DNA of 38,173 nt from Anaerovorax odorimutans (GTDB lineage: Bacteria > Bacillota > Clostridia > Peptostreptococcales > JAAYPU01): contig JAENZQ010000018.1 of the NCBI GenBank assembly GCA_016841185.1, positions 26,475-64,647 of the forward strand, written 5' to 3'. Within the stretch, counting starts at the first letter, position 1. Each line of letters opens with the position of its first letter. Positions 9,065-30,242 of this stretch are shown here, piece by piece. The position numbers and the translations under genes are program-made. The notes beneath the pieces were generated by a model that worked only from the letters and a program-made list of their open reading frames with translations, ran no database searches and was not told the origin of the DNA.

Positions 9065-9089
9065 CGTTTCGTACCTCCTTTTAAAGAGC

Positions 9090-13235: not shown

Positions 13236-13251
13236 TCAAAGTCCTCCTTGA

Positions 13252-14571: not shown

Positions 14572-14604
14572 GTATTTTCCTCCTTATATTAAATTGATAT
14601 TAAA

Positions 14605-15579
14605 TCAATCTACGATTTCCATAACTGCTTTGAAGATATCCTGAGGATTTGGATATATGTGATCTTCCAATGCCGGACTGAAGGGAGGGATCACATTTAG
14701 TCCGGCGACACGTTTAACTGGTGCATCCAGGTAATCAAAAAGTTCGTCAATGATTTGAGAAGCAATTTCTCCCATATAACCGTTGCGTTTTACCCCTTCC
14801 TGAACCAATACAACCCGATGTGTCTTTTTTATAGACTGCTGGATGGTGTCCCAATCAAGAGGTACCAAAGTTCTTAAATCAATTACTTCTGCTTCGATTC
14901 CTTGTTTTTTCAATTCTTTTGCAGCTTCTAATGCAAAGAGGATCTGTCTGGAATAAGCAATGATTGTGACATCTTTTCCGCTTCGTTTAACATCTGCCTT
15001 TCCTAATGGTATGAGATATTCTTCTTCGGGAACTTCTCCTTTTTTTGCATACAGGATTTTATGCTCTACACAGATTACAGGATCGTCGTCGCGTATGGCG
15101 GATTTCAGAAGACCTTTCGCATCATAAGGTGTTCCCGGCGCTATGACTTTTAAGCCGGGGAAATGTGTAAATAATGCTTCCAGACTTTGTGAGTGCTGGC
15201 CTGCATTCCTTCGCCCCGCCCCGCCAGGAGTTCTTATTACCAATGGAATTGAAACCTGACCCCCGGTCATATAACGTAGTTTGGCAGCTTGATTGACGAT
15301 AGGATCTAATGATATAGGCGTAAAGTCAATATACATGATTTCAACGATAGGCCGAAGCCCTCTCATTGCTGCCCCTACGGCCATACCAGTAAAGCCGTTC
15401 TCCGATATGGGTGTATCGATTACCCGGTTAGGGCCGAATTCTTCTAAAAACCCTTTGGTCAAACCAAAGACACTTCCCATGACACCCATATCTTCTCCTA
15501 TAATAAAGACAGAACTGTTTCGGATCATTTCTTCATGCATTGCTTCCCGTATGGCCTGGCCATAAGTAATATTTCTCAT
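14605..15579 (-). CDS. acoB: TPP-dependent dehydrogenase E1 beta subunit
   Basis: A 324-residue transketolase-like beta subunit of a 2-oxoacid or acetoin dehydrogenase. Motifs include IGEDMGVMGSVFGLTKG, PISENGFTGMAVGAAM, the PGGAGRRNAGQHSQSLEA loop and VVLVQEGVKRNGYMGEIASQ. It forms the alpha2-beta2 E1 with the upstream gene; the ATG overlaps the alpha stop (ATGA), so the subunits are made together. Length is normal. The sequence is of the acetoin-dehydrogenase/PDH E1-beta group and does not by itself settle the substrate. Confidence 0.94.
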   Translation of the reverse strand: MRNITYGQAIREAMHEEMIRNSSVFIIGEDMGVMGSVFGLTKGFLEEFGPNRVIDTPISENGFTGMAVGAAMRGLRPIVEIMYIDFTPISLDPIVNQAAKLRYMTGGQVSIPLVIRTPGGAGRRNAGQHSQSLEALFTHFPGLKVIAPGTPYDAKGLLKSAIRDDDPVICVEHKILYAKKGEVPEEEYLIPLGKADVKRSGKDVTIIAYSRQILFALEAAKELKKQGIEAEVIDLRTLVPLDWDTIQQSIKKTHRVVLVQEGVKRNGYMGEIASQIIDELFDYLDAPVKRVAGLNVIPPFSPALEDHIYPNPQDIFKAVMEIVD

Positions 15580-16565
15580 CTTACAACCCCTCTTTCATTA
15601 TCCGTGGTATATACATCATCAGTAACTTCCCGAACATCCGGATAAGGTGAATCTTTAGCGAATGCTACGGCTTCTTCGATTTCTGCCTTGTTCTTTTCTT
15701 CAATTATTTTCAGTTCTTCTTCTGATGCAAAACCTTTACTTAAAATTTCTTTCTTTATATTTTCTATGGCATCATGGTTTAGCCACTTTTCTATTTCTGT
15801 TTTTGATTTATAAACTTGGGGATCACCTTCATAATGCCCGTGGTATCGATATGTTTTTGCTTCTATTAAAGATGGGCCTTTTCCCTGACGGGCGTGTTCT
15901 GCTGCTTTTTGTACCGCATTATATATTTCAAAAACATTATTTCCGTCTACAATCATCCCTGGGATATTATAAGCTTTGGCGCGTTCCGCAATGTCTTCTA
16001 CATTACATACTCTGTCGATACACACAGATACACCGTATTTATTATTTTCGCAAAGGTATACAACAGGCAGTTTCCAGGCAGAAGCCATATTGATGGATTC
16101 GTGAAAATATCCTTCATTTGAAGCGCCGTCACCAAAGAATACAAGGGTCACTTCATTTTTTTCAGTAATTTTTGAGGCTAATCCCGATCCGGTTCCAATA
16201 GCAAGACCGGCACCGACTATGCCATTGGCCCCTAAGATACCACGGTTCAAATCGGCAATATGCATGGATCCTCCTTTTCCTTTGCAGTAACCTGTTTGTT
16301 TTCCAAAGAGCTCTGCCATCATCAGATTGGGTTTACAGCCTCTTGCAATACATTGTCCATGTCCTCGATGTGTACATACAATATAGTCACTTTCCTTTAA
16401 AGCATTACAAGCGCCTACTGCAACAGCTTCCTGCCCAATATAAGTGTGAATATTTCCTGCGAGCATTGCCTGAGTAAATAACTCTGATGCTTTAAGTTCA
16501 AAGGAACGCAATCGCTGCATTTCCTGATAAAATTTAATATATAATTCCTTGTCTTTTTTCTTCAT
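15576..16565 (-). CDS. acoA: TPP-dependent dehydrogenase E1 alpha subunit (acetoin dehydrogenase type)
   Basis: A 329-residue thiamine-diphosphate-binding alpha subunit, the first gene of the operon. The TPP motif runs from GDGASNEG (residues 145-152) to NN at 174-175. The blocks THRGHGQCIARG, GKGGSMHIADLNRGILGANG and TYRYHGHYEGDPQVY match acetoin-dehydrogenase-type E1 alpha, a group that also contains uncharacterised relatives. It would cleave a C-C bond next to a keto or hydroxy-keto group and pass the acyl unit to E2-lipoate. ATG 16565 has AAGGAG 8 nt upstream. Expression should be driven by the sigma-54 promoter at 16628-16643. Confidence 0.93.
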   Translation of the reverse strand: MKKKDKELYIKFYQEMQRLRSFELKASELFTQAMLAGNIHTYIGQEAVAVGACNALKESDYIVCTHRGHGQCIARGCKPNLMMAELFGKQTGYCKGKGGSMHIADLNRGILGANGIVGAGLAIGTGSGLASKITEKNEVTLVFFGDGASNEGYFHESINMASAWKLPVVYLCENNKYGVSVCIDRVCNVEDIAERAKAYNIPGMIVDGNNVFEIYNAVQKAAEHARQGKGPSLIEAKTYRYHGHYEGDPQVYKSKTEIEKWLNHDAIENIKKEILSKGFASEEELKIIEEKNKAEIEEAVAFAKDSPYPDVREVTDDVYTTDNERGVVR

Positions 16566-16627
16566 GTAGCATCTCCTTTCTCAGTAATTGATTCCATTAT
16601 CTTTACTTAAATTCATTTTTATAAATC

Positions 16628-16643
16628 GCAATCTTCGTGCCAA
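16628..16643 (-). promoter_or_regulatory. Sigma-54 (-24/-12) promoter of the aco operon
   Basis: On the minus strand the sequence is TTGGCACGAAGATTGC, an essentially perfect match to TTGGCACG-N4-TTGC. It lies 63 bp upstream of the acoA start and directly downstream of the gene for an AAA+ sigma-54 activator. That makes RpoN-dependent, activator-dependent expression very likely. Confidence 0.92.
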
Positions 16644-16685
16644 CTTGAAAATCCTTTAATATCAATGCTTGTGCTCTTCAAAAAA

Positions 16686-16728
16686 ATAAAGTGATCATAT
16701 TGAATTGCTCAAAATATGATCACTTTAT
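16686..16728 (-). terminator. Intrinsic terminator of acoR
   Basis: Perfect 15-bp arms (16686-16700 and 16714-16728, core AAGTGATCATAT) surround a 13-nt loop. On the minus strand a T-rich tract (TTTATTTTTTT) follows at once. It would end acoR transcription before the aco promoter. Because it lies about 45-85 bp upstream of the -24 box, it could also serve as an activator site; I prefer terminator because of the T-tract. Confidence 0.8.
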
Positions 16729-16780
16729 GATAAATGCAAATAATAACAGTCATTTACATTATTGTTCAATTTTTGATTAG

Positions 16781-16797
16781 TGTTAGATAATCTAACA
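16781..16797. promoter_or_regulatory. Candidate enhancer (UAS) for the AcoR-type activator
   Basis: TGTTAGATAATCTAACA is a perfect 8-bp inverted repeat around one base. It lies about 140-150 bp upstream of the -24 box, a normal distance for a sigma-54 enhancer, and overlaps the acoR stop codon. Assignment rests on symmetry and position only. Confidence 0.5.
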
Positions 16798-18759
16798 TTC
16801 TATTTCATATTTTTTCATTTTAGTGTAAAGTGTATTTCGTGCGATGCCCAGAATTTTTGCTGCCCAAGTGATATTACCTTTGCAATATTCCACAGCATCG
16901 ACAATAGCTTTGTATTCAGCTTCTTCCAGTGATATTATCTGGTCATGTTTATTAAAATGCCTGTTGTTTTTCAATATGTTTTTAGGTAAATGGCTTGGTA
17001 AAATATGATCTTTTTCAGCAAAATTAACTGATCTTTCAAGTATATTTTCTAATTCTCTTACATTGCCTGGCCAGGAGTAATTATTGAGAATTTCCATTGC
17101 TTCGGAACATAATGTATAATTTTTTTGATGTTCTTTTGACAATATATTGAGAAAATACTCGATCAATAAGGGAATATCGCCGTTTCTGCAGGATAATGGC
17201 GGTATATTTATGGTTAGAACATTCAACCGCCAAAAAAGATCATTACGGAAAGTACCGTCCTGAATTTCTTTATTGAGGTTTTTATTGGTAGCAGCGATTA
17301 TTCGTACATCTACGGGAAAAGTTTTATTTCCGCCGATCCTGGTTACTTCCTTTTCCTGAAGGACTCGAAGCAGTCTAACCTGCATATCCATGGTCATTTC
17401 ACCGATTTCATCAAGAAATAGTGTACCACCTGCAGCCATTTCAAATTTTCCGGGACGGCCCCCTCTTTGTGCCCCTGTGAAGGCTCCTTCCTCATAACCA
17501 AAAAATTCGCTTTCAATCAATTCACGCGGTATTGCGCCGCAATTTACAGCAACAAATGGCTCCTGTGCACGAGGACTGGCATTATGGATAGCCTGAGCAA
17601 AAAGTTCTTTGCCGGTGCCGCTTTCTCCCATTATCAATACACTTGATGTACATTTTGCTGCAGATGCAGCAAGGCGTTTTGCTTCAAGGAGCTCTGTACT
17701 GTTTCCTATAATATCATTAAATGTAAAGCGGGCATGGGCACCAACCATTTGGTTGACCAGTCTTTTTACCTGTTTTATTTCTCTGAAAATATCTACGATT
17801 CCTGTAATTTCTCCATTTTTCCCTACAATTGGAATAGCACTTTTTACAAAATGAATCCTTCCTCTTTTGGAATTGATGATGAATTCCCTGTCGATATAAC
17901 CTTTGCCTGTTTTGAGGACTTTTAGTATGACTGCCTCATAATCCAAAACTTCATTTATGTGTTTTCCAACGGCATTTTTATAGTCGCAAAAAAGGATCTT
18001 CCCGGCACTTTCATTCATAAACGTGACGATTCCATATTTATCGATAGACAGTATTCCTTCAGAAACCGATTCAACTACGGCTTTATGGTGCTGAGTCGTA
18101 AACAGGAGTTTTTCGGTGGTTTCTATGATTTTAAGCTGGTTTTCAATGGCCATTTCTGTGGCAACCAACATTCCCAAAGTGTGGCTATGTGCGTTTTCTG
18201 ATCTGCCGGCCATGCTGATGGCTGCAATTATTTTGCTTTCCGGGTCACGGATAGGTATTCCTGAACATGTCCATTTCTGCTGCTCAAGGCAATAGTGTTC
18301 CTCTCCAATGATTTGAATAGGATTTCCTTCAATCAGGACCATCCCGATAGAACTTGTACCGACACATTTTTCACTCCAATTGGCACCCAATTTAAAATTA
18401 CATCCTGTACTATAATCGTTGAGGATGTCCTGATCACCCAGAACGTGTAAAACATTGGCTTCATCATCCGTTAAAAAAACGATAAAGCCTGAGCCTTCAA
18501 CTATTTTATAAAGATTTTCCATGTATGGCCGGATTACTTTTATGAGCTTTTCTTTTTCATGTAGTTTCTGTATTAATTTTTCCTGTGTAAGCACAGAAAC
18601 ATTGTCGCTTTCATAAGGATTCACGCCTAATGCTTTACATCTTTTCCAAGAGTCGACAATGTTTTTTCTTACTTTTCGGGGCTCTATTTCTTCAGTAATA
18701 AATTTATACCATTCGTAATTTACCAATTCTGTTTTCAAATTTGTTTTTGAAACAGACAT
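16792..18759 (-). CDS. acoR: AcoR-type sigma-54-dependent activator (GAF-PAS-AAA+-Fis HTH)
   Basis: A 655-residue enhancer-binding protein. It has an N-terminal sensory GAF region (about 85-205), a PAS domain (about 225-330), and an AAA+ domain with Walker A GESGTGKE (378-385), the sigma-54 contact loop GAFTGA (425-430) and Walker B GGTLFLDE; a Fis-type HTH lies at the end ([20 protein letters not shown]). The order matches AcoR, the activator of acetoin dehydrogenase operons. The frame is open to 18810, but ATG 18759 has AAAGGGGG about 11 nt upstream, while the outer ATG has none. It has its own sigma-A promoter (18829-18857) and should activate the promoter at 16628-16643. The GAF or PAS domain probably senses the pathway substrate. 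Confidence 0.92.
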
Positions 18760-18828
18760 TAAATCTTCTACCCCCTTTGAAATATTACCAGCGTAAAATA
18801 ATATTCCCATAATATATATATTTGTTTA

Positions 18829-18970: not shown

Positions 18971-20278
18971 TTATCTTTGATGTTTCTTCCCCATTTCCTC
19001 AAGTATTTTATACAATTCGGTTTTGCTGCCCCTGTTCCATGAAGTATATATTTTTTCGGACAATTTCGGAGGGAGCGGAAGAGAAGTTAAATGGTTTTCC
19101 TTATATATTCTTTCGACTTCTCTGGAATATTCTTCACACAGGCTGCAATCTCCGGCCCATTCAAAACAATCTCTCATTTTAACGTATATTTTTTCAAAGT
19201 TTTCTTCTGAAATATTGCCAAAGGATATGTTCAAAAATTCACAAGGTTGTACGTCTCCTTTTGCATTGATATAGAACCGGTCTATGCCGCCTGCCGTACA
19301 ACCGAACACATCTTTATCCTCCTCTATGATTTGAGCAAATACAGCGGGATAATTTTTGAATTCTATTTTGGAATTATATTGGTTTACTTTGCTCTTTATA
19401 AGATTTATGTCCTCCGGGGCAAATTTTAAATTTTCTCTGCCCAGCCATCCTCCCGAGGGTTTTGGTTTGATTAGTTGAATAAGAGAGACCTTAAGATCTT
19501 TTGCTTTTTCCATAATTATTTCAAATTGGTTATTGTAAAAATCTTCTTTTAAAAGGCAGGTGTTCAGGGCAACTGCCATGTCTGCTTCATGACACATATG
19601 AACCGCGGACTCAAAGGTATCCCAAGCTGAATCGCTGCCCATAAATTCATTAAAAAAGCATGGATCCGGGTTGTGTAGAGAAAACATAATAGCTGTTACA
19701 TTCATTTTCTTCAATTCTGTAAGCCTTTCTCTGGTGATACCGGCACCGGTTGAATTAACCCATATTTCGGATCTTTCATCAATGGAAGCGCAAACTCTTT
19801 TTAATCGCTCATAGGTTAAAAAAGGCTCTCCGCCTTCAATATTAAAGAAGGCAATTCCCATGTCCTGCAGTTTCCTAACAACATCTGTCAATTTGTCGAT
19901 TTGAACATCTTTTCCTTTATCATGCTTCTGGTAACAGTGGCTGCAATGATACATACAGGCAGATGTAACTGAAATCAGTACCGTTGTACATGGCATTTTA
20001 TTTTCAAACTGAATAAATTTTTTGCATGCCGTAAGAAAGGCTTTTGACGGATAGCCGGGAACATACAGATCGATTCTTGTTTTACCTCCTATTCTTACGA
20101 ATTTATTATGCTGTAATCTGGAAAGAAAGAACAGCAGCCTTTTTAAAAATAGAAGAAACCTTCTTAATGTGATTTTTCCCATGAAAAGCTCCGGGAGAAA
20201 AAATAAAAAAATATGGATCTTTAATTTCAGAATAAAGATATATCTGTTGAATCCAGTAATATTATCAACCTTTTGCAT
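18971..20278 (-). CDS. Radical SAM protein with SPASM-like C-terminal cysteines
   Basis: A 435-residue protein and the last gene of the lipid-like cluster. About 60 N-terminal residues are hydrophobic and basic (FILKLKIHIFLFFLPELF, then FLLFLKRLLFFLSRL), which suggests membrane association. The radical SAM cluster motif is CMYHCSHC (C-x3-C-x2-C), followed by the GGEP motif in FFNIEGGEPF. The C-terminal CTAGGIDRFYINAKGDVQPC and CSLCEEY look like auxiliary Fe-S ligands of the SPASM/twitch kind. The ATG at 20278 has AGGGGG 7 nt upstream. It lies 52 bp after the epimerase gene. The substrate is unknown; a modification of the lipid or prenyl product of the cluster is inferred from context. Confidence 0.88.
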   Translation of the reverse strand: MQKVDNITGFNRYIFILKLKIHIFLFFLPELFMGKITLRRFLLFLKRLLFFLSRLQHNKFVRIGGKTRIDLYVPGYPSKAFLTACKKFIQFENKMPCTTVLISVTSACMYHCSHCYQKHDKGKDVQIDKLTDVVRKLQDMGIAFFNIEGGEPFLTYERLKRVCASIDERSEIWVNSTGAGITRERLTELKKMNVTAIMFSLHNPDPCFFNEFMGSDSAWDTFESAVHMCHEADMAVALNTCLLKEDFYNNQFEIIMEKAKDLKVSLIQLIKPKPSGGWLGRENLKFAPEDINLIKSKVNQYNSKIEFKNYPAVFAQIIEEDKDVFGCTAGGIDRFYINAKGDVQPCEFLNISFGNISEENFEKIYVKMRDCFEWAGDCSLCEEYSREVERIYKENHLTSLPLPPKLSEKIYTSWNRGSKTELYKILEEMGKKHQR

Positions 20279-20330
20279 ACACAACCCCCTGCTTTCGGCT
20301 TGATTTCTGTTATCCTTTATCTTACAAGGC

Positions 20331-21362
20331 TTAAATAAGCCCTCTTTCTTTGTACCATGCCACAGTTTTCTTTATGCCCTCTTCCAGACTATAGGAATTT
20401 TTAAAATCTAAAAGCTTTTCTGCTTTCTTTACAGAATACTCGATATTATCATAAAACATATTGACTCTGCCCCTTGTCAGCAAAGGAGGCTTATTCGAGC
20501 GAAACAACGTGTAAGCAAGTTCCATCATAAAGGCAACAGGATATATAAATGTTTTAGGGATATTTGCCGGTTTTTTGATTCCTGCCTCTGAACAAAACAG
20601 TTCATAAACCCTGTTCATATATTCAGCTTTCTGATTTCCGATAATAAAGCAGTTGATACCTTTCAGCTGTTTCTTATAAGCTGCGAGGTAAGCATTTGCA
20701 AGATCTCCTGCATAGATAACGTGAAATTTATTTTTATTTGATCCCGGCAAAAAAGGAATGCCGGAACTTGCTGTTTTAATGTATTCATAAAATCCGGTAT
20801 TGAATTCCCTCTCTCCGTAAACCCAAACAGGTTCTAAAATAGTAAGATTCAGTTTGTTTTTTTCGGCAAATTTTATTGCTTCTTGTTTTGCCAAAGCCTT
20901 TGTATCACGATAATAGTTCAGTTTGCTGGGGAAAATACCATCTGCAAAATATTTGTAATGTGAATGGCATGGTGCATTCTCATTTTTTACAATAGGACTG
21001 TTTTCTTCCCCGTATACTGAATTTGAAGATGCCAGTATGACATTGTCAATGCCTGAGTTTAAACAGGCACGCAGGACATTTATTGTTCCTGTAACATTAG
21101 TATGATAGAATTCGTGATAACTACCCCAGTCAGATGCTTTTGCTGCATTATGAATAACACAATCATATCCCTTGAAAGCTATTGTTAAGTCAGTTTCATT
21201 TCTTATATCACCTGTCCGTATTTCTACCGGCAGCCCTTGAATATTGGATATATCACTGTTTTTTCTTGTCAGGCCGCCCACCGCTATTTGATTAGAACAA
21301 AAAGTTCTTGTGATATGGCTTCCTATAAAACCGGATGCACCTGTTATCATAACATTATTCAT
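20331..21362 (-). CDS. NAD-dependent epimerase/3-beta-HSD-like reductase
   Basis: A 343-residue extended short-chain dehydrogenase. The Rossmann motif GASGFIG is at residues 8-14; the catalytic triad is seen as Ser in ASSNSVYG and YRDTK (Tyr151, Lys155). The family includes sugar epimerases, 3-beta-hydroxysteroid dehydrogenases and CerR, the ceramide/ketosphinganine reductase of bacterial sphingolipid synthesis. Its place in a cluster with an oxoamine synthase and an ACP favours reduction of a 3-keto amino lipid (inference). The ATG at 21362 overlaps the ketosynthase stop by 8 bp, with AGAGG 10 nt upstream. An in-frame TTG at 21371 is too close to that site. Confidence 0.86.
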   Translation of the reverse strand: MNNVMITGASGFIGSHITRTFCSNQIAVGGLTRKNSDISNIQGLPVEIRTGDIRNETDLTIAFKGYDCVIHNAAKASDWGSYHEFYHTNVTGTINVLRACLNSGIDNVILASSNSVYGEENSPIVKNENAPCHSHYKYFADGIFPSKLNYYRDTKALAKQEAIKFAEKNKLNLTILEPVWVYGEREFNTGFYEYIKTASSGIPFLPGSNKNKFHVIYAGDLANAYLAAYKKQLKGINCFIIGNQKAEYMNRVYELFCSEAGIKKPANIPKTFIYPVAFMMELAYTLFRSNKPPLLTRGRVNMFYDNIEYSVKKAEKLLDFKNSYSLEEGIKKTVAWYKERGLI

Positions 21363-22617
21363 TTTCGTCAAACCTCTTTAAAAGCAGTAAAGCATTATGC
21401 CCCCCGAAACCATAAGAAGCCGATAGGCCGTATTTTATATGAGCTTCCATTGATGTCATTGGCAGATTTAGATTCTCTATGGGGTTCATAGTCAGGTTGC
21501 CGTGTAAAACAGATTCTTTTATGGACAAAGCTGTCACAGCTGCTTCAATGGCCCCGCTTGCGCCGATACTGTGCCCCAACAGGCCTTTTGTAGAGTTGAT
21601 GTAAGGTTGATGCTTTTTATCACCAAAAATATCCTGTATAATTTCTGCTTCTATCTTATCATTGGAAACTGTTGCTGTTCCGTGGGCATTCAGGTAATCT
21701 ATTTTAATATCTTTAATGAGTTTCTTTATAATTGCTGTTATATTTTTACCGGTGGGGTCCATTTGGACAATATGGTATGCATCGCTGGAGTATTCATATC
21801 CGGATAATTCTGCATATATTCTTGAGCCTCTTTCTTTTGCTTTTTGAAGTTCTTCAAGAACCAGAAGACAGCCGGCTCCCTGATTGAGTAAAAAACCGCT
21901 TCTGTCTCTGGAGAAAGGAAGCGGCATTCCGTCTTTGGACCTGGTCAGGACAGACAGCATGTCAAAGCCTCTCATAACAGAACCGCTTTCCTCTGACAGA
22001 GCTTCGACTCCTCCTGTTATGACAGTATCACATCTGCCAAGCATGATATTTTTATAAGCTTCCCCTATTGCCAGACTTCCTGACGCACATGAAGCATTCA
22101 CAGTGTAATTCAAACCGTTGAGGCCAAATAGTATGGAGACCCATGAAGAGGCTGAGTTTGGCATCAACATGGGAATAACCATACGATTGTATCGGTATTT
22201 GTTCGAATCATTGCATTGGGAAATATGGGCAGTGTAGGAATGCATTGCTGTTTGGAGACTGCTCATGCCTACGCCGATTATCGTCATACAGTCCTCCGGG
22301 CAGTTGGATTCAAAATATTTATCTTTGCGTTTAATTGAAAAACCTGCATCTTCCAAAGCAAGCTTTGCGCATAAAACAGATAGCCTTGATATTTCTTCCA
22401 TTATACTTTCGCAGTATTGTGGGATACCATGTTCTTGTAACGAAAATACGGGACCGGGGACAAAAAAGCGGGATTTATAGTGATAGTTTCTTTCATAATG
22501 GACCGGTATCCGGGATATACAGGTTTTCATGTCCATTATATTTCTGAACATTGCATCTTTCCCGATTCCCATTGCCGTGACCGGTCCTATACCTGTAATG
22601 ACGACTCTTTTTTTCAT
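21355..22617 (-). CDS. Beta-ketoacyl-ACP synthase (FabF/KAS II type)
   Basis: A 420-residue condensing enzyme with a full catalytic set: Cys177 in NASCASGS, His312 in NAHGTATVSND, Lys344 and His349 in STKGLLGHSIGASG. The PFSRDRSGFLLNQGAG block is FabF-like. It should extend acyl-ACP with a malonyl unit. A lone ketosynthase beside a dedicated ACP and no other fatty-acid synthase gene points to a specialised chain, not bulk fatty acid synthesis. It starts at ATG 22617 with AGGAG, 5 bp after the ThiL-like stop, and its 3' end overlaps the epimerase start. It could make the keto-acyl or chain-length-specific acyl-ACP used by the oxoamine synthase. Confidence 0.93.
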   Translation of the reverse strand: MKKRVVITGIGPVTAMGIGKDAMFRNIMDMKTCISRIPVHYERNYHYKSRFFVPGPVFSLQEHGIPQYCESIMEEISRLSVLCAKLALEDAGFSIKRKDKYFESNCPEDCMTIIGVGMSSLQTAMHSYTAHISQCNDSNKYRYNRMVIPMLMPNSASSWVSILFGLNGLNYTVNASCASGSLAIGEAYKNIMLGRCDTVITGGVEALSEESGSVMRGFDMLSVLTRSKDGMPLPFSRDRSGFLLNQGAGCLLVLEELQKAKERGSRIYAELSGYEYSSDAYHIVQMDPTGKNITAIIKKLIKDIKIDYLNAHGTATVSNDKIEAEIIQDIFGDKKHQPYINSTKGLLGHSIGASGAIEAAVTALSIKESVLHGNLTMNPIENLNLPMTSMEAHIKYGLSASYGFGGHNALLLLKRFDENE

Positions 22618-22622
22618 GATAT

Positions 22623-23627
22623 TTACTCCTGTCTACAAGCTTTTAAAAATTCAAAGATATCCATTAAGAATGATTTTTTGTCATGATAGTCTCTCGCATT
22701 CAGATGGTATGCCCTTAAGTCAATTACTTGATTATCTGTAAAAAGCCTTTTAATACCGCTTTCTTTTACTTCTCCTATTTTAAAAAAATTCAAGTTTTCT
22801 TCTGAAGCTTTTTTAAAAAAATCTTCACTGTTTCCTTTTTTCATGGTGAAAAGCAGCTCATATTCACCACATTCTCCGAGAAACAGCATTTCTATGGGTA
22901 AGTTAAGTGATTTTCCAAGGAGAATGCCCTCTGTCTTATAAGGTAAATGGCGAAGTTCATATCCTGTCTTATTGATTTCTGATATCGCTGAAAGGGCACG
23001 GTATACACCATCGCTGGTATCAATGCAGCAATTGCAGTATTGGCGAATCAAACCGGCTTCTTTATTTCTCAGTACAAACATATTTTTGATTTGTTGAGCT
23101 ATTCTATCATGAGAATATAATTTTAATGCAGCATCTATATTACCTGTACCTATTTTCCCGGTTATAAATATTTCGTCGCCGACCTCTGCTCCTTTTCTAA
23201 TAATAGGAGTATCCGTGAGCTGACCTATTGCTGAACCGGTATAACGCCATGAATCTGCATAACTGAAATCGCCTCCTATAAAAAACATACCCGTTCTTTT
23301 CAAAACATCTGAAATACCCATTGAAAGTTTTTCAACATACTCAGATGTCCAGGATGGGTTAACTGCAATGCTATGGGCATAATACTCCGGACGCCCTCCG
23401 CATGCAAAAATATCACTGATGGTTCCGGCTGTCATGTTCCATCCCAGAACATAGGGATCTTCGTCCCTGAACATATCTTCTTCAGAAAACTCGTCAATAG
23501 TATAAACAAGCTTATTTCCGTGAAAGTCGATAATTTCAGCATCTGACTGAAACGGTTTATTTAACTGCATGGAGCTTTTCGGCATATGTTTTTGTATCAT
23601 TTCGATCATTTCTTTTTCTTTACTCAT
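22623..23627 (-). CDS. ThiL/PurM-like (AIR synthase-related) ATP-binding protein
   Basis: A 334-residue protein of the AIRS/ThiL superfamily, with an N-terminal ATP-binding half and a C-terminal AIRS_C half. Similar features are WNMTAGTISDIFACGGRPEY, GGDFSYADSW, a TGSAIGQL strand, IRKGAEVGDEIFITGKIG and CIDTSDGVYRAL; the last resembles the SDG motif of thiamine-monophosphate kinase. No thi genes are nearby, and the gene is embedded in a lipid-like operon between the lipid kinase and the ketosynthase (5-bp and 3-bp gaps). It may phosphorylate or activate an unusual intermediate. It should not be called thiL. ATG 23627 has GGAG 8 nt upstream. Confidence 0.8.
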   Translation of the reverse strand: MSKEKEMIEMIQKHMPKSSMQLNKPFQSDAEIIDFHGNKLVYTIDEFSEEDMFRDEDPYVLGWNMTAGTISDIFACGGRPEYYAHSIAVNPSWTSEYVEKLSMGISDVLKRTGMFFIGGDFSYADSWRYTGSAIGQLTDTPIIRKGAEVGDEIFITGKIGTGNIDAALKLYSHDRIAQQIKNMFVLRNKEAGLIRQYCNCCIDTSDGVYRALSAISEINKTGYELRHLPYKTEGILLGKSLNLPIEMLFLGECGEYELLFTMKKGNSEDFFKKASEENLNFFKIGEVKESGIKRLFTDNQVIDLRAYHLNARDYHDKKSFLMDIFEFLKACRQE

Positions 23628-23630
23628 TTT

Positions 23631-24602
23631 CTAAACTCCAATCAATACTTCCAACGGATCATGGGCTGTTTCGACTTCACAAGGCAGGAAACCGTTGGGA
23701 TCACCATCGAATTCCAACTCAGGGTTTTTACTGCATCCGTATACCCTTATACATTTGGCGTATTTTAATGTTATATGATGATCATCTATTATTTTTTTAC
23801 CGCTGTAAATTTTTTTGAATATTCCGGGCCAATTAAAAAATCGTATATTTTTGATTGCCAGATTATAAAATCGTCTGTCAGGGCAGCATAAATCGTTTTT
23901 GACTTTTATACCTGAGGCAATAAAAGGTGTTATTCCTATTGAAATATTATTGACACTCTTTATAATCTCTTCTTTATCATCGAGAAGAATGGTAAATTTT
24001 GACGGATTATAGTTCAATAATGCTTTAATAAGAGATATAAAGGTCCCGGCTTTATCCCCTACCGCTTTTCTGATTCCTTGGTTTGCATTTCTTGCCAGAG
24101 CCGGACCGATTCCGATATTTGCACAACAGGCAAAAAAACTGACTTTGATAGGACCGTTATAATCGGACAGCGATCGGCCATCCAAATCTTCATTAAAATG
24201 GGGACAATGTGTTATTTTACCGATTTGAATCATTTTACTCTTGCCTGAAAGCAAAGCATTGACTGCCTTTTCGGTTTTCAATGGTATATGATAGCTTTTG
24301 CAGAAATCCGGACTTGTACCCGTATAGATAACACCAAATCTGGCATTGGAGATCCTTCTGCCGGAATCATCGTAGAAACCGTTGATGACCCTGTTGATTG
24401 TTCCGTCCCCTCCTACGGAGACAATAACGTCATATTTATTTTTGTTGGCTTCAATAGAAAATTCGTAAGCATCGTCCGGATTAGAGGTTGCTTTGTAGTC
24501 ATAAGAGATATTTTTCTCATCAAGAATCTTAAATATTTCTTTGAATTTCTTTTCGCTTTTGCCCCCATTGGATGCGGGGTTCATAATCAGAAAATATTTC
24601 AT
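23631..24602 (-). CDS. DAG/sphingosine kinase-family lipid kinase
   Basis: A 323-residue member of the DAGK_cat/YegS/sphingosine-kinase family. The opening strand and glycine loop are NPASNGGKS, the nucleotide motif is GGDGT (64-68), and the usual GTGNDFA loop is changed to GTSPDFC; the C-terminal half ends in ELEFDGDPNGFLPCEVE. It phosphorylates a lipid alcohol. In the Caulobacter sphingolipid locus a kinase of this family acts on ceramide; next to an oxoamine synthase and an epimerase-type reductase, a long-chain amino-alcohol is a reasonable substrate (inference). The ATG overlaps the oxoamine synthase stop (ATGA). Diacylglycerol or undecaprenol remain alternatives. Confidence 0.88.
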   Translation of the reverse strand: MKYFLIMNPASNGGKSEKKFKEIFKILDEKNISYDYKATSNPDDAYEFSIEANKNKYDVIVSVGGDGTINRVINGFYDDSGRRISNARFGVIYTGTSPDFCKSYHIPLKTEKAVNALLSGKSKMIQIGKITHCPHFNEDLDGRSLSDYNGPIKVSFFACCANIGIGPALARNANQGIRKAVGDKAGTFISLIKALLNYNPSKFTILLDDKEEIIKSVNNISIGITPFIASGIKVKNDLCCPDRRFYNLAIKNIRFFNWPGIFKKIYSGKKIIDDHHITLKYAKCIRVYGCSKNPELEFDGDPNGFLPCEVETAHDPLEVLIGV

Positions 24603-25774
24603 GTTTGATTTATCCTTTTTATTATTTCTGAACCTTGCTCAATAGCTGTCTCAGAAAGGTTGATACCGGCAATGAACCTTATGCGTCCTTCATTTATTGG
24701 AACAGAAGGCTCGATAAAAGGAGTCGAAAGGATTCCCTTTTCATATAGTTTTTTTGCTGTGGCTATGGTATTTTCCCGGCTTCCGGTCCTGATACTGTTG
24801 ATTGGGGCAGGGCTGGATACGGTATCGAATCCCGCTTCAACAAGACTGTCATAGAGAATATTTTTATATAAATACAATTTGTTCTTCAGTACTCCAGAAT
24901 CGTTTCTGATAATTTTCAGAACAGCTTTTATTCCGGCTAAAACTGAGGGTGTAACAGAAGTAGAATAAACCAGATGCGGGCAATAATATCTTAGATACTT
25001 TATTATCTCTTTTTTTCCGCATATGACACCGCCGGAATTGGCAAAAGCTTTGCCCAGTGAAGCCGTGTAGATTCCATTGAAATCATGTATATTCTGCGCA
25101 TCAAGAATCCCCTTCCCTTCATTACCTAATACTCCGATACCATGAGAGTCATCTATTATCGGCAGAGCATTGTAATGCCGGCATAGCTCGTTGATTTCCC
25201 GCAGGGGTGCAATGGTACCATCCGTTGAGAAAACCGATTCCGTAACGACGAATACCTGTATATAATCATGTGAGCGTTTGAGTAGTCTTTCAAGGTATTC
25301 CATATCGTTATGCAAAAATGGACGGATTTTGCAACCCACAGCCTTTGCACCCTGGATCAATGAGGAATGAGCAAAACGATCCACTATGACCAGGTCATTC
25401 TTTCGAGCGATAGATACAAACAGACCAATATTGGCCTGGTAACAGGACGGGAGTATAACTGTGTCCTCAAGTCCGATAAAATCTGATAATTCTTTTTCAA
25501 GGGTTTTAAAGAGGTCAATATATCCGGTTGATACAGGTGTACCGCATAAAGACGCACCATATTTTTCAACTGCAGTGATAATGGCGTTTTTCAACCGGAT
25601 ATCTGCTGCCAGCCCAAGATAATTGTTGGATGCCAGATCGATAATATCACGGCCCTCCATCCGAATCCATTCATCCAGGCCGGACTCTACTTCTATATAA
25701 TACGGATTAAATCCGATCTTTTCTGCTGCCTGTTCATCAACATAAAACCTCTTGTAAAAATCGTTACAAAACAT
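24599..25774 (-). CDS. Alpha-oxoamine synthase (PLP-dependent, BioF/KBL/SPT family)
   Basis: A 391-residue PLP enzyme that condenses an acyl thioester with an amino acid, with decarboxylation, to an alpha-amino ketone. Seen: SNNYLGL at the start of the fold, His136 (stacks on PLP), Asp208 and His211 in DDSHGIGVLG, and the Schiff-base Lys242 in TASLGKAF. The family includes 8-amino-7-oxononanoate synthase, serine palmitoyltransferase, CqsA and 5-aminolevulinate synthase. There are no bioA, bioB, bioD or hem genes here; instead a stand-alone ACP gene is 17 bp upstream and a lipid kinase overlaps downstream. An ACP-bound acyl donor and a sphingoid-base-like product are therefore inferred. The amino acid used is not readable from the sequence. 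AAGGAG precedes ATG 25774. Confidence 0.9.
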   Translation of the reverse strand: MFCNDFYKRFYVDEQAAEKIGFNPYYIEVESGLDEWIRMEGRDIIDLASNNYLGLAADIRLKNAIITAVEKYGASLCGTPVSTGYIDLFKTLEKELSDFIGLEDTVILPSCYQANIGLFVSIARKNDLVIVDRFAHSSLIQGAKAVGCKIRPFLHNDMEYLERLLKRSHDYIQVFVVTESVFSTDGTIAPLREINELCRHYNALPIIDDSHGIGVLGNEGKGILDAQNIHDFNGIYTASLGKAFANSGGVICGKKEIIKYLRYYCPHLVYSTSVTPSVLAGIKAVLKIIRNDSGVLKNKLYLYKNILYDSLVEAGFDTVSSPAPINSIRTGSRENTIATAKKLYEKGILSTPFIEPSVPINEGRIRFIAGINLSETAIEQGSEIIKRINQT

Positions 25775-25791
25775 TAGTTTCTCCTTATTCT

Positions 25792-26022
25792 CTAATCTAT
25801 AGCTGACCTTAGCTTATGAACAATATCTTTTACTGTAATTATATCTGAAAAATTTCCTTCATCGATTTCAATAGAAAACTCGTCTTCCAGAGCGGATATG
25901 ATCATCAACGTATCAAAAGAGTCACATAAAAGGTCTTCTTTCAAACGACTTTCAAGCTTTATTTCAGTTTTTCTTCCTAAACTTTTGTTAAGGGCGGCTA
26001 TAATCCTATCTTCAAAATCCAT
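25792..26022 (-). CDS. Acyl carrier protein, dedicated
   Basis: A 76-residue acidic helical protein. The phosphopantetheine site is Ser35 in LCDSFDTLMI, a slight variant of DSLD. The frame is open further (to 26094) across the end of the reductase gene, but ATG 26022 has AGGAGGTAA 5-6 nt upstream and gives the standard ACP length. It lies 4 bp after the reductase stop and 17 bp before the oxoamine synthase. Sphingolipid-making bacteria carry a similar special ACP beside serine palmitoyltransferase. It is probably loaded by the housekeeping holo-ACP synthase, since no PPTase gene is in the cluster. Confidence 0.93.
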   Translation of the reverse strand: MDFEDRIIAALNKSLGRKTEIKLESRLKEDLLCDSFDTLMIISALEDEFSIEIDEGNFSDIITVKDIVHKLRSAID

Positions 26023-26026
26023 TTGA

Positions 26027-27223
26027 TTACCTCCTGTAGCATCGGGTTGGGTGATTAGTATCGCACATAACTGCACAAATGTTGCAATTTGCACATCCGG
26101 ATATATATTTCGGATTATGCATCAATTTATCTATGAAATCTGGCTCGCAGATAAACGGTCTGCATAAGCTTATGAAATCAGTGAATTTATTTTCAAGACA
26201 CCATATCATTTCCTCACCTTTTCTGAATCCGCCTACGCTTATAATGGGGATATCGGTGATTTTCTTTGCAATTTCTGCAAATCTTATATTGTAAGCAGGT
26301 GAAAAAGGCTTAATTTTACAACGCATAAAAGGATAAACAAATGACCGGAAAATAAATTTTTTAAGCAAATTATCGGTTTTATACACCGGATTGAAGCTCA
26401 AAATGGTTTTTAACGGAATTGCACCTCTGAAAATACTCATTGAATAATCCATGGTACCATAGCTGATTTCAATAGCATCCACTTTTTTTTCATCTAAAAA
26501 ACCAATCAAATTTTTAAATTGTTCCATGGTAAATCTATTGAAGTAATCATCGCTGCCGCTGATTTTTACAAGTAAGGGGAATCCATTTCCGCATTTTTTT
26601 CTGACTGCATCAATAACCGAATCAAGAAAGTTTATACCGATTTTTAATTTTATGTGGATACCAAATTCATCTTTTCGATTATTGATAGCCGGAAGGATAA
26701 ACTGATGAATCAAGTATCCATGAGCAGCATGTAATTGTATGCCGTCAAATCCGGCCATTTTGGCATAAAATGCCGAATCGGCAAATTTCTCTATGATGGT
26801 ATGGATCTGAGGAACAGATAATACATTGGGTTTTTCCTTAAAATATAGGGATTTTTTTCCGGATGCTCCCCATACATTCTGATGTGTTTCCTTTTTTCTC
26901 GTTTGCCTGCCGGTATGGGCCAATTGCATAAATATTCTGCTGCCGTTTTTATGAACAATATCTGTTATGGGCCGAAAATTTTGAATTTTATCCGGGCTGT
27001 CAATTCCTGCCTGACCCGGATGCATAGCTTTACCTTCCTGAGAAATGTAGGCGAAACCCGTAATAATGCCTCCAACACCGCCTGCAGACAGATTTTCATA
27101 TAAATCATAGTATTCGTTTAATGGAATGCCGTTGGCATCACACATGCCTTCAAAAGTTGCAGATCGTATTATTCTGTTTTTTAATTGAAACGGGCCTATT
27201 TTCGCAGGCATAAATAATTTCAA
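26027..27223 (-). CDS. Old Yellow Enzyme-family NADH:flavin oxidoreductase with Fe-S cysteines
   Basis: A 398-residue FMN barrel enzyme. The start [20 protein letters not shown] is the OYE N-terminus, and [11 protein letters not shown] holds the substrate-binding His and surrounding residues. The C-terminus has CANCNIC followed after 11 residues by another Cys, the [4Fe-4S] pattern of 2,4-dienoyl-CoA reductase relatives, but the C-terminal NAD(P)H-binding half of those enzymes is absent. It would reduce an activated C=C bond, for example in an enone or prenyl-derived product. The start is TTG with GGAG 9 nt upstream; the first ATG, four codons later, is too far from that site. The UbiA stop lies 54 bp upstream. 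Confidence 0.9.
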
Positions 27224-27277
27224 TATTATTCGCTCCAGTCTTGTTGGTCTGTTTTTCTAAGCTTTTATTTTAAGGTT

Positions 27278-28258
27278 TTATGATTTTGGATTTGAATGTA
27301 AATCAAATAACATTCCAACAAATATATAGGATACTAAAAATAAAAGCATTGCAAGTTCTGTGTTAAACAAAGCTATGAGTGTAGCTTGACCGCAGGTACA
27401 TGCTCTAAAGTTTACTGCAAGGGAGTAATATGTTTTTTTACCTATGGGATTTTTATAATAAAGATACCCGGTCCATATTTCTAAAAATAACGTCAATGCG
27501 CCCAGAATAAGAAACATGTTGTTTACCCTGGCCATAATGAATCCACCGGTATACAGTACGATAAAAGCGGCAGCAGGAATAAAAGCAGAGAAAAAAGCAA
27601 TCCACCTTGATTTATTGATCCCGTATTTTACTACGATGGTTTTCTTTGAAGCCGCCTTATCACCTTCATAGTCTTTAAAATAAGTATAAAAGGTCATTAG
27701 ACCATTGAGTAAGATCACTAATATGAGAACTGAAATACGGCTGACAGTAAAATAGGGGGATTGAGTGGGGCCTGCCGCAAGAAATCCAAATGCGGTACAT
27801 GTTGAGATCATAAGCCCGAAAACAATATTTCCCAGTATACCATAGCCCTTTGCATGCTCATAGGCAATATTCAGAAAAATACCTAATATTGCAGGAATTA
27901 AGGCCATGGGTTCAAGCAGGGTAAGGATGATGATAAATGTGATCCCTGACAATCCGAAAGAGAAGACCAATGCTTTTTTTGCGTTTAATTCACCTGTCAC
28001 CATGGGACGTTTAGGTGCATTTATTCTGTCTTCCTTAAGACCCAAATAATCGTTGATGATTTGGTTGATGCCCCAGCTTAAAAAGAGCAGAACCAGAATA
28101 AGTGTCTTTTTTTCAGTAGATGGAACTATTTCTACGGTGCGGAAAGATGATTTGGCAATGTACTCGTAAAATGCGATGCCAATCCAACCGGAAATACCTG
28201 TAATGAAAGAATAATAAAGCCTCATTGATTTGATATATGCTTTTAAAAATGTTAACAT
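27278..28258 (-). CDS. UbiA-family prenyltransferase
   Basis: A 326-residue membrane protein with about eight or nine helices. The first Mg-diphosphate motif is NDYLGLKED, where Gly replaces the middle Asp of NDxxDxxxD, followed by APKRPMVTGEL. The second motif is DYEGDKAASKKT, which is intact. It should move a prenyl chain from a prenyl diphosphate to an acceptor; the group includes makers of quinones, haem O and archaeal-type ether lipids. No quinone genes are nearby. The frame allows ATG 28276, but ATG 28258 has GGAG 8 nt upstream and is preferred. The acceptor could be the product of the oxoamine synthase and lipid kinase, which is inference. Confidence 0.9.
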   Translation of the reverse strand: MLTFLKAYIKSMRLYYSFITGISGWIGIAFYEYIAKSSFRTVEIVPSTEKKTLILVLLFLSWGINQIINDYLGLKEDRINAPKRPMVTGELNAKKALVFSFGLSGITFIIILTLLEPMALIPAILGIFLNIAYEHAKGYGILGNIVFGLMISTCTAFGFLAAGPTQSPYFTVSRISVLILVILLNGLMTFYTYFKDYEGDKAASKKTIVVKYGINKSRWIAFFSAFIPAAAFIVLYTGGFIMARVNNMFLILGALTLFLEIWTGYLYYKNPIGKKTYYSLAVNFRACTCGQATLIALFNTELAMLLFLVSYIFVGMLFDLHSNPKS

Positions 28259-28277
28259 GGATATTTCTCCATTCATC

Positions 28278-28724
28278 CTATTCTATTTCTTGCAACCTCT
28301 TTTTTATATATTCGTAATCAAAAGATGAGCAGATTCTTCGCTCTTCATGATCCAAAATTCGATAGTGCTGAGATATGATATTCTGCTGGATTTTATACGG
28401 TCCGTTTGTCTCTATATCCTTCCACCATATTTTACCGCCCATTGTTTTTTCATAATGATTTTCATGATCATTAAAAGCCAATAAAAGAATAATGTCCAAA
28501 GGCTGGCCGCCATAGGCCATTGCAAGGACTTCACTGTCTCTGAAAATTGTGCATAAAGTAACGGCACCTGACCATCCTAAGGAAGCCCTGCCCTTTTCTA
28601 TCTGTATCAGCGTTTTTTTGGATATTCCAAGGGCATCAGCCATTTTATCCTGTGTGAAATCATTCTCGATTCTTATCATTTTCAGCTTTTCATCGGCTTT
28701 TTTAATAAATGCATCACGATTCAT
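28278..28724 (-). CDS. XRE-family regulator, first gene of the lipid-like cluster
   Basis: A 148-residue protein with an N-terminal Cro/CI helix-turn-helix (about residues 12-65: RIENDFTQDKMADALGISKK, then TLIQIEKGRASL) and a C-terminal region I do not recognise. The ATG at 28724 is chosen over two earlier in-frame starts because GGAG is 8 nt upstream. The UbiA start lies within 20 bp of the stop, so regulator and enzymes share a transcript. It probably acts on its own promoter at 28745-28773, where an inverted repeat covers both boxes. Confidence 0.88.
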   Translation of the reverse strand: MNRDAFIKKADEKLKMIRIENDFTQDKMADALGISKKTLIQIEKGRASLGWSGAVTLCTIFRDSEVLAMAYGGQPLDIILLLAFNDHENHYEKTMGGKIWWKDIETNGPYKIQQNIISQHYRILDHEERRICSSFDYEYIKKRLQEIE

Positions 28725-28744
28725 AATCATCACTCCATAGTGTA

Positions 28745-28773
28745 ATTTTACAACATTTATGTCATTTTGTAAA
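28745..28773 (-). promoter_or_regulatory. Promoter of the lipid-like cluster with operator-like dyad
   Basis: On the minus strand TTTACA (28768-28773), 17 bp and TAAAAT (28745-28750). Arms TTTACAA (28767-28773) and TTGTAAA (28747-28753) form a perfect inverted repeat that overlaps the -35 and -10 boxes, a good place for autoregulation by the XRE protein (inference). Confidence 0.65.
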
Positions 28774-28949: not shown

Positions 28950-30242
28950 TCAATCATCCAATTTTTTTATAACTTGGTTCAACTTATTTTCTATGCTGTA
29001 GAGAAGCGTTACCGGAGAAATGTTCTCGATCAGATAATAGTAATCCCAATTTTCCTGTATGGTTATGTTCAGCAATTCAATAAAATCATTGATTTTATTG
29101 AATTCATATCTTTGATGTTCCAAAAATAAAAACTCTGATTCTGTTGTTACCAAAAACTGATATGTTTCATAATTCTGGTTTTGTTTCAAAACATCACTTC
29201 GCATATTGCAATTCATCATAGATTTTAAAACAGTTCTGTAGATAGGACCGTCCAGTGCAGCTGAATAAGCATCTATCTCAGAAGTGATTTTGTAAATAAA
29301 TTGAGGATTCTTAAGCTGAATAACGCTATTAAAACTGTTCCCTATTCTATTATGATCGATAATCACTTCCGTATCCACCGGTACGGCTATCTTCTCAAGA
29401 CCGGGAATACCATTGAGACGGATTTCCCGTATCATTTTATGTCTATCATTTTCGTACGACAATTCAATATTTTTTTTCAGCATAGAATCGATATCCACTT
29501 CAATGGAATCTTCTTTGAAAGATGTGGTGCTTCCTGACATATCGGTATTGTTGTTGACGATATGCCAGGCATGAGACATTTTTTCATTTAATGATAATAA
29601 AATCAAATAAGGAAAAAGAAATGAAACAATCTCCTGTTGGTCTGAATTTTCAAAATCTAATTCTTTATACAAAGAAAACAGTACCCGGTTGGAAAGATCC
29701 ATTCCAGGTAAAAGAAAAATACAGCTGTTCTGATAATCCGAAAGGGGAACGATTTTATTTCTATTGAAATGGATTAATGAATAAAATTCTTTGTTTAAAT
29801 AGAAATTCCCTTTATTGTACAGCCATGAAATGAGCGTATCATCCGTAACAGGATCTGTTCCGTGGCTGTTCTTGATATAATATGTTCTGCGTATTTGATC
29901 CCTGTAGGCATATGGGAGTTCTTTTCTTCTGGGAATATTGATGATCAATAGTTCACCGTCTTTTTCAATTTGATGGTCCAAATCACATAAAATGGACGGT
30001 GTGATTCTGTCTTTACAGAAGGCTTCAATTTTTTCTTTAAGTTTGTCTATGCCGCTTTTACCTTCTTCGGAAAATTTATCGAAAATATGAAAACCTTCAT
30101 TGGTACCATCATCTTTTTTTCCGACATAAATCTTTCCGCCGTAACGATTAGCCATACCGATGATGACCTTTCCCCATTCAACCGGATCTTCATTTAGAAA
30201 TTTTTCTGACTCCTTAAACTCAATAAAAAGATTCTCTTCCAT
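28950..30242 (-). CDS. AlbA_2 (Schlafen-type) domain protein of unknown role
   Basis: A 430-residue protein. Its first ~140 residues match the AlbA_2 nucleic-acid-binding domain found in bacterial Schlafen-like and ATP-binding regulators: EFKESEKFLN, VIIGMANRYGGKIYVGKKDDG, then RRTYYIKNSHGTDPVTDD. The remaining 290 residues are not recognised and show no helicase or GHKL motif by eye. Proteins with this domain occur as stand-alone regulators and in defence systems; nothing adjacent makes a defence module. ATG 30242 follows TTGAGGT. It is a single-gene unit with its own terminator. Confidence 0.75.
   Translation of the reverse strand: MEENLFIEFKESEKFLNEDPVEWGKVIIGMANRYGGKIYVGKKDDGTNEGFHIFDKFSEEGKSGIDKLKEKIEAFCKDRITPSILCDLDHQIEKDGELLIINIPRRKELPYAYRDQIRRTYYIKNSHGTDPVTDDTLISWLYNKGNFYLNKEFYSLIHFNRNKIVPLSDYQNSCIFLLPGMDLSNRVLFSLYKELDFENSDQQEIVSFLFPYLILLSLNEKMSHAWHIVNNNTDMSGSTTSFKEDSIEVDIDSMLKKNIELSYENDRHKMIREIRLNGIPGLEKIAVPVDTEVIIDHNRIGNSFNSVIQLKNPQFIYKITSEIDAYSAALDGPIYRTVLKSMMNCNMRSDVLKQNQNYETYQFLVTTESEFLFLEHQRYEFNKINDFIELLNITIQENWDYYYLIENISPVTLLYSIENKLNQVIKKLDD

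Follow-up and report, generated by a model that had tools for sequence, protein, structure and literature searches.

What kind of molecule is made by a set of genes that places a ketosynthase and a dedicated acyl carrier protein (ACP) beside an alpha-oxoamine synthase (AOS), a membrane prenyltransferase and two candidate kinases? The question is raised by a 38,173-nucleotide stretch of the Anaerovorax odorimutans genome (contig JAENZQ010000018.1, positions 26,475 to 64,647), referred to below as the window, in which the list of open reading frames (ORFs) contains ten minus-strand ORFs running from 28733 down to 18971. An earlier note made from the DNA letters had read these ten genes as an undescribed operon for a sphingoid-like or prenylated lipid. 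Our analysis favours, with a probability of roughly 40%, an undescribed nine-gene pathway for a nitrogen-bearing, phosphorylated and probably prenylated lipid. As far as novelty is concerned the two accounts agree, since no description of such a gene set was found among the open-licence PMC papers listed, judged by titles and abstract openings.

A conserved nine-gene cassette

The genes lie on one strand in the order UbiA-family prenyltransferase (UbiA), old yellow enzyme-family flavoenzyme (OYE), ACP, AOS, lipid kinase, ThiL-like protein, ketosynthase, short-chain dehydrogenase/reductase (SDR) and radical S-adenosylmethionine (SAM) protein, and this cassette was found at seven loci beyond the window. 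Five of them are complete and contiguous, namely L036 (genome G001), L037 (G085), L041 (G269), L044 (G472) and L031 (Desulfosporosinus sp. Tol-M). At L042 (G412) the last eight genes are in order and the UbiA gene, some 5.6 kb further upstream, is separated from them by other genes, and at L032 (Desulfosporosinus sp. UBA4726) the order is intact until the contig ends within the SDR gene. Identities to the window proteins range from 38% (ThiL-like protein, L037) to 80% (UbiA, L036). The ACP gene is immediately upstream of the AOS gene at all eight loci, and the genes of the lipid kinase and the ThiL-like protein are neighbours at all eight. Because the nine-gene order recurs at other loci, the grouping is not a matter of chance, and the ends of the cassette look sharp, since ten chosen flanking ORFs at five other loci belong to unrelated families or to none. 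The nine genes from UbiA to the radical SAM protein are one conserved cassette; the XRE-type regulator (28278..28733; HTH_19/HTH_3 in Pfam) is an optional first gene, which precedes UbiA in the window and at L036, L041, L031 and L032 (5/8 loci), its homologues at these four of the seven other loci being 66-78% identical. The proposal of a ten-gene unit thus stands as regards a conserved unit, but its core is nine genes. The survey of gene neighbourhoods that the earlier note had suggested returned a conserved order, and not the lack of conservation that would have spoken against it.

Gene content, order and conservation, like the catalytic residues and fold classes given below, are direct observations of this analysis. 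The ten window genes are closely packed, with the widest intergenic gaps between UbiA and OYE (54 bases) and between SDR and radical SAM (46 bases), and with overlaps of the AOS with the lipid kinase gene and of the ketosynthase with the SDR gene. From this spacing, the only basis used, we infer that the ten genes form a single transcript; promoter-like sites (44 against 41.0 expected, standard deviation 6.9) and terminator-like sites (10 against 8.1 expected, standard deviation 2.7) are at background. Each of the ten proteins has at least one Pfam match over the gathering score, the AIRS match in the C-terminal part of the ThiL-like protein falling slightly under its own (22.4 vs 23.1), and among the matches listed none of the ten exceeds a curated NCBIfam cut-off. 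The ORF list, Pfam and the alignments bear out the ten same-strand genes, the families, the tight spacing and the catalytic residues first described for this locus.

The cassette is rare. Counts of genomes include the window's own genome unless stated, and the samples overlap. At E <= 1e-40 the ThiL-like protein was detected in three of the 391 genomes sampled from the class and in one of the 398 sampled from the phylum. In the family to which G412 belongs it was detected in two of 14 genomes, a sample that has the window genome outside it and contains the previously known G412. UbiA was detected at the same threshold in 4/393 genomes of the order, and no relatives of it were seen in other contexts, the window's own genome being the only one of 398 phylum genomes with a match at E <= 1e-25. 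AOS relatives are widespread at E <= 0.001 (71 of 98 related genomes), the best identities dropping from 100, 71 and 48% in the cassette holders G000, G001 and G085 to 35%. Of the five AOS relatives found in named genomes, two come with the cassette, both of them in Desulfosporosinus; the scan worked with short peptide patterns and reaches close relatives only. The fourth genome of the order with UbiA, G974, has an intact UbiA gene at L060 (13544-14878) followed by OYE residues 1-55 joined directly to radical SAM residues 357-415; this looks like a decayed remnant of the cassette that arose by internal deletion, an assembly fault being possible.

A joined tree of the nine proteins from seven loci, with L032 left out, splits the window, G001, G269 and Desulfosporosinus Tol-M from G085, G412 and G472 at 100/100. 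G269, which has only the class in common with the window genome, sides with the window, whereas G085, a member of the window's order, does not. Both horizontal transfer and repeated loss are compatible with this mismatch between cassette tree and kinship. Trees of the individual genes agree for the most part, with weak support in some: the window and L036 are sisters in seven of nine (not in those of ACP and SDR), and L044 and L042 in all eight that contain both. The distribution as a whole fits a cassette that is rare, and transferable or repeatedly lost.

The oxoamine synthase and the question of primary metabolism

The AOS (24599..25774; Aminotran_1_2) is the enzyme on which a sphingoid reading would be expected to turn. 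Its Lys242 is invariant in 7/7 aligned homologues. Against the NCBIfam bioF model it reaches 301.6 bits (cut-off 426.45), against the serine palmitoyltransferase (SPT) models 255.8, 214.6 and 155.8 bits (cut-offs 640, 500 and 670), and against the KBL models 266.2 and 234.2 bits (cut-offs 460 and 493); SPT chains are its top sequence matches in the PDB. The seven cassette sequences form a clade of their own with a long stem, at 100/100 in three trees. In the first two trees this clade joins a Bacteroides plasmid protein (90/77 and 92/78), and both of these group with the SPT references at 94/94 in the first tree, the same 11 rows recurring at 93/95 in the second, which was drawn midpoint-rooted. 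The supports of the SPT grouping are below the tree tool's star mark, and long branches meet there. The grouping depends on the single long-branched Bacteroides row: in a third tree built without it the nearest neighbour of the cassette clade is L033 (29/77), topology tests find kinship with SPT (p 0.477), KBL (p 0.568) and 5-aminolevulinate synthase (ALAS; p 0.266) all acceptable, and the KBL-constrained tree scores better than the free one. Tests on the second tree gave p 0.067 for SPT, with a group omitting the Bacteroides row, 0.243 for KBL and 0.0088 for BioF. Without that row the BioF grouping is borderline (p 0.0497), and its test set of seven rows, two references and five clostridial rows whose BioF kinship is unsure, is itself not one clade.

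The AOS would accordingly be described best by its sequence as a distinct subfamily, with BioF disfavoured and SPT, KBL and ALAS kinship all acceptable. The suggested sphingoid-like kinship is unproven: the SPT grouping appears in two trees, but is one of several acceptable placements once the Bacteroides row is removed. A firm grouping with BioF or KBL, which had been named beforehand as evidence against a sphingoid-like route, was not seen, although KBL kinship is acceptable by the tests (p 0.568). It is the neighbouring genes, more than the AOS itself, that speak for a sphingoid pathway. The Bacteroides protein that sways the placement is in two trees, at modest support, the closest AOS from outside the cassette; it is encoded on a conjugative plasmid (L047, NZ_CP041231.1, 5935-7170), next to a TetR regulator and not far from a gene with a MAC/perforin domain. 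At L032 the AOS gene (7679-9067) was matched as three separate pieces, indicating a broken gene or an assembly fault.

The ketosynthase (21355..22617; ketoacyl-synt) is of the FabF type, with Cys177, His312 and His349 invariant in 8/8 aligned homologues, and scores 300 bits against TIGR03150 (fabF; cut-off 493.75). A separate FabF above the cut-off is present in all seven cassette genomes searched, and a housekeeping FabF role for the cassette enzyme was rejected on this ground. The ACP occupies 25792..26022, counted from the likely ATG at 26022 within an ORF of 25792-26094, and matches PP-binding; its serine, Ser59 in the numbering of the long ORF and Ser35 if translation starts at the likely ATG, is invariant in 8/8, and its best NCBIfam model gives 49.7 bits (cut-off 71). 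A region of G412 (G412:C1:123591-171890) contains many ketosynthase matches in open frames of very large size and is probably a modular polyketide locus.

The window genome holds one AOS only, according to a genome search. BioB above the cut-off was found in none of four of the seven cassette genomes (the window's, G001, G085 and G269) and is present in the other three, with only 7 of 14 control genomes exceeding the cut-off. Biotin synthesis is unlikely in the window genome because its sole AOS is the cassette enzyme and no BioB is above the cut-off; the missing BioB is supporting, non-final evidence against a biotin role. Taken with the score under the bioF cut-off and the tree tests, the last of them borderline, it led us to judge an assignment of the AOS as BioF unlikely. 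ThiL above the cut-off occurs in none of the seven cassette genomes and in 9 of 14 controls, which says little, since five of the 14 controls are likewise without it. An additional UbiA copy lies elsewhere in six of the seven cassette genomes, the cassette copy being the sole one in G085.

Prenyltransferase, kinases, redox enzymes and neighbouring genes

UbiA (27278..28276; Pfam UbiA 94.8 bits) has as its nearest solved sequence the archaeal digeranylgeranylglyceryl phosphate (DGGGP) synthase 6m31 (E=5.1e-11), with chlorophyll synthase at 8e-5, and its predicted model matches the 6m31 fold at Z 20.4 (rmsd 4.8, 275 aligned, 24% identity). DGGGP synthase prenylates a lipid phosphate. The first aspartate motif reads NDYLGLKED in the window, where Gly79, invariant in 7/7, occupies the middle aspartate position of what we take to be the usual motif NDxxDxxxD; the second motif, DxxxD (202/206), is retained.

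The lipid kinase (23631..24602; DAGK_cat 90 bits) retains GGDGTIN, has GTSPD and EFDGD in 7/7 aligned rows, with F after GTSPD in six rows and L in L031, and has DgkB and YegS types as its nearest solved relatives; these motifs may be read as a changed substrate. The ThiL-like protein (22623..23627; AIRS), a probable kinase, scores 138.6 bits against TIGR01379 (cut-off 184.15), and its model (pLDDT 82.5) resembles ThiL 5cm7 in fold (Z 30.6, rmsd 2.8, 291 aligned). Comparison at a selection of 17 positions of E. coli ThiL showed nine retained in 7/7 rows (30, 75, 121, 122, 146, 212, 214, 215 and 263) and eight changed (31, 44, 45, 46, 53, 105, 213 and 319). The acidic residues D30, D75, D122, D212 and D215, presumably the metal and ATP residues of ThiL, are kept in all seven rows, and the positions that we assign to the thiamine side are mixed, with 53 and 319 changed and 263 kept.

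Three redox-type enzymes complete the cassette. The OYE (26027..27223) has Oxidored_FMN (175.1 bits) as its sole Pfam match, with no FAD/NAD domain, and its C-terminal cysteines 377, 380, 383 and 395 are invariant in 8/8; they probably hold a 4Fe-4S cluster and resemble what we take to be the cysteine set of the FadH/BaiCD type. Isoprene reductase was dropped as a lead for this enzyme, since the excerpt of PMC10134865 concerns another type of oxidoreductase. The extended SDR of the epimerase/3beta-HSD type (20331..21371; Epimerase 113.5 bits, 3Beta_HSD) is a likely ketoreductase, with Tyr154 and Lys158 of the long ORF (151 and 155 from the ATG) invariant in 7/7, and its best solved relative is 3wj7, a 'Putative oxidoreductase' (E=1.4e-24). 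The radical SAM protein (18971..20284; Radical_SAM 57.6 and SPASM 28.5 bits) has the CxxxCxxC cysteines 110, 114 and 117 invariant in 7/7 and four further invariant cysteines of SPASM type in its C-terminal part (329, 348, 380 and 383); a sequence search of the PDB returned no relative at 1e-5.

The surroundings of the cassette in the window were annotated by eye from the translations. An acetoin-dehydrogenase-like operon (E1 alpha/beta, E2, E3) with an AcoR-type sigma-54 activator adjoins it at 11850-18810. Upstream lies an AlbA/Schlafen-like ORF (28950-30242), which has no match at E <= 1e-6 to any ORF at the other seven cassette loci. Further away, a DNA methyltransferase-like ORF with a TSPPYP motif (1036-2079) stands beside a small ORF (183-947), perhaps as a restriction pair.

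A candidate pathway and its rivals

The reaction types of ketosynthase and ACP, AOS, SDR, lipid kinase, UbiA and ThiL are those of their families, and combine into a candidate route. The ketosynthase and the dedicated ACP would supply a long-chain, possibly beta-keto, acyl-ACP, which the pyridoxal-phosphate-dependent AOS would condense with an amino acid, CO2 being released, into an alpha-amino ketone. With reduction of this ketone by the SDR, these proteins would together make an amino-ketone or amino-alcohol lipid; the DAGK-type kinase would phosphorylate a hydroxyl, and the DGGGP-synthase-like UbiA would add a prenyl chain in place of the N-acylation of ceramide. With a prenyl group as the second chain, the absence of an N-acyltransferase would be understandable. 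The ThiL-like protein may convert the monophosphate to a diphosphate, and the OYE, which lacks an NADH domain of its own, and the radical SAM protein may finish the molecule by reducing a double bond and carrying out a radical step.

Several points weigh against this route. The reactions, their order and the product, thus the activities of the whole cassette, are wholly inferred, and sequence fixes the substrate of no cassette enzyme; the trees leave the place of the AOS among SPT, KBL and ALAS unfixed; and the OYE and the radical SAM protein are without an assigned step. The quality of the UbiA model is modest (pLDDT 70.6) and its fold match is tied between DGGGP synthase and the non-DGGGP Aeropyrum UbiA 4od5 (Z 20.1, rmsd 3.4, 266 aligned), and with its altered aspartate motif the enzyme may be inactive or take a different donor. 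The fold does not fix the reaction of the ThiL-like protein either, because SelD and HypE (Z 24-29) score close behind ThiL.

The combination of ketosynthase, ACP, AOS and SDR would also serve an alkylpyrrole or other heterocycle pathway of the RedL/RedK kind, in which the ketosynthase would build a beta-ketoacyl chain, addition of glycine by the AOS and cyclisation would give a keto-pyrroline, the SDR would reduce this to an alkylpyrrole and UbiA would prenylate the aromatic acceptor; aromatics are common acceptors of UbiA enzymes. In the excerpt of PMC12654105, RedL turns a dodecanoyl chain into 4-keto-2-undecylpyrroline, which RedK reduces and dehydrates to a pyrrole. We hold this alternative to be unlikely, if worth keeping in view: it offers no clear role for the lipid kinase or the ThiL-like protein, according to the excerpt of PMC8102152 RedL is a type I synthase, and the likeness of the cassette proteins to RedK and RedL is by description only. 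Quite doubtful, too, is a scheme in which the lipid kinase and then the ThiL-like protein act in series on a non-isoprenoid lipid, whose diphosphate would be the donor for UbiA. There is a parallel in tocopherol synthesis, where phytol kinase and phytyl-phosphate kinase feed prenyltransferases, and ThiL itself converts a monophosphate into a diphosphate; the constant adjacency of the two kinase genes, the retained acidic ThiL residues and the glycine in the UbiA motif, which could fit an unusual donor, all agree with such a series. However, UbiA donors require an allylic or similarly ionisable carbon, of which there is no sign here, and the lipid kinase, its activity itself putative, has EFDGD where the aligned DgkB chain has DGE.

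A Firmicute version of the Caulobacter-type sphingolipid (ceramide) pathway would account for the joint presence of AOS, ACP, epimerase-type reductase and DAGK-type kinase, for the SPT grouping in two trees, for the SPT chains at the head of the PDB matches and for the acceptable SPT topologies. It is nevertheless improbable, for it has no place for ketosynthase, UbiA, ThiL-like protein, OYE and radical SAM protein, and the SPT model scores are far below their cut-offs, with the grouping hanging on one long-branched row. Plain ceramide synthesis was rejected because the Pfam matches of the ten proteins include neither an N-acyltransferase nor an acyl-ACP ligase domain, in line with the earlier view that the product is probably not ordinary ceramide. 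Still further down the scale, and very improbable, is a chance gathering of housekeeping genes for biotin, fatty acid and thiamine synthesis. The best NCBIfam matches of AOS, ketosynthase and ThiL-like protein are indeed bioF, fabF and thiL, and none of the cassette genomes has a ThiL above the cut-off elsewhere; yet all three proteins stay under the curated cut-offs, every cassette genome has its separate FabF, BioB above the cut-off is missing from four of the seven, both BioF tests give low p values (the second with a set that is not one clade), and the gene order is conserved.

If the route to a nitrogen-bearing, phosphorylated and prenylated lipid is real, some Firmicutes make a prenylated lipid or cofactor without known counterpart, a lipid class beyond glycerolipids and ceramides, in whose synthesis a ThiL-type kinase would act on lipids and a UbiA enzyme would have an altered metal site. 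A more specific version, which we offer as speculative and rather unlikely, would be a new class of membrane lipids or lipid cofactors with an amino-alcohol backbone made by the AOS, a prenyl chain from the DGGGP-synthase-like UbiA replacing the amide-linked acyl chain and a diphosphate made by the lipid kinase and a ThiL-derived kinase in series; anaerobic bacteria would then combine the logic of sphingolipids with that of archaeal ether lipids. At about 9.3 kb from UbiA to the radical SAM gene the cassette is compact enough to be moved to another host.

Among known systems the Caulobacter-type sphingolipid genes, comprising SPT, AcpR, AasR, bCerS and CerR in the excerpts of PMC11324152 and PMC11087976, likewise combine an AOS with a dedicated ACP and a reductase. 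No bCerS or acyl-ACP ligase domain occurs among the ten window proteins, a comparison that was not extended genome-wide; the cassette adds ketosynthase, UbiA, ThiL-like protein, OYE and radical SAM protein, and its AOS is below the SPT cut-offs. Its SDR has the nucleotide-binding fold at its very start, whereas the excerpt of PMC11087976 reports a periplasmic CerR. A Roseomonas plasmid locus has an ACP, an AOS and a diacylglycerol-kinase-family gene close together, as in the cassette. The undecylprodiginine branch (RedP/Q/R/L/K), as excerpted, has the logic of ketosynthase, ACP, oxoamine synthase and reductase in common with the cassette, which differs, by description only, in its stand-alone AOS and its extra kinases, UbiA, OYE and radical SAM protein. 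Compared with the archaeal DGGGP synthase 6m31, the cassette UbiA has an altered first aspartate motif, is a distant relative by sequence and belongs to a bacterial cassette. The ThiL-like protein has the fold and the acidic residues of ThiL, but lies under the equivalog cut-off, differs at eight of the 17 positions and is encoded in a lipid-type cassette.

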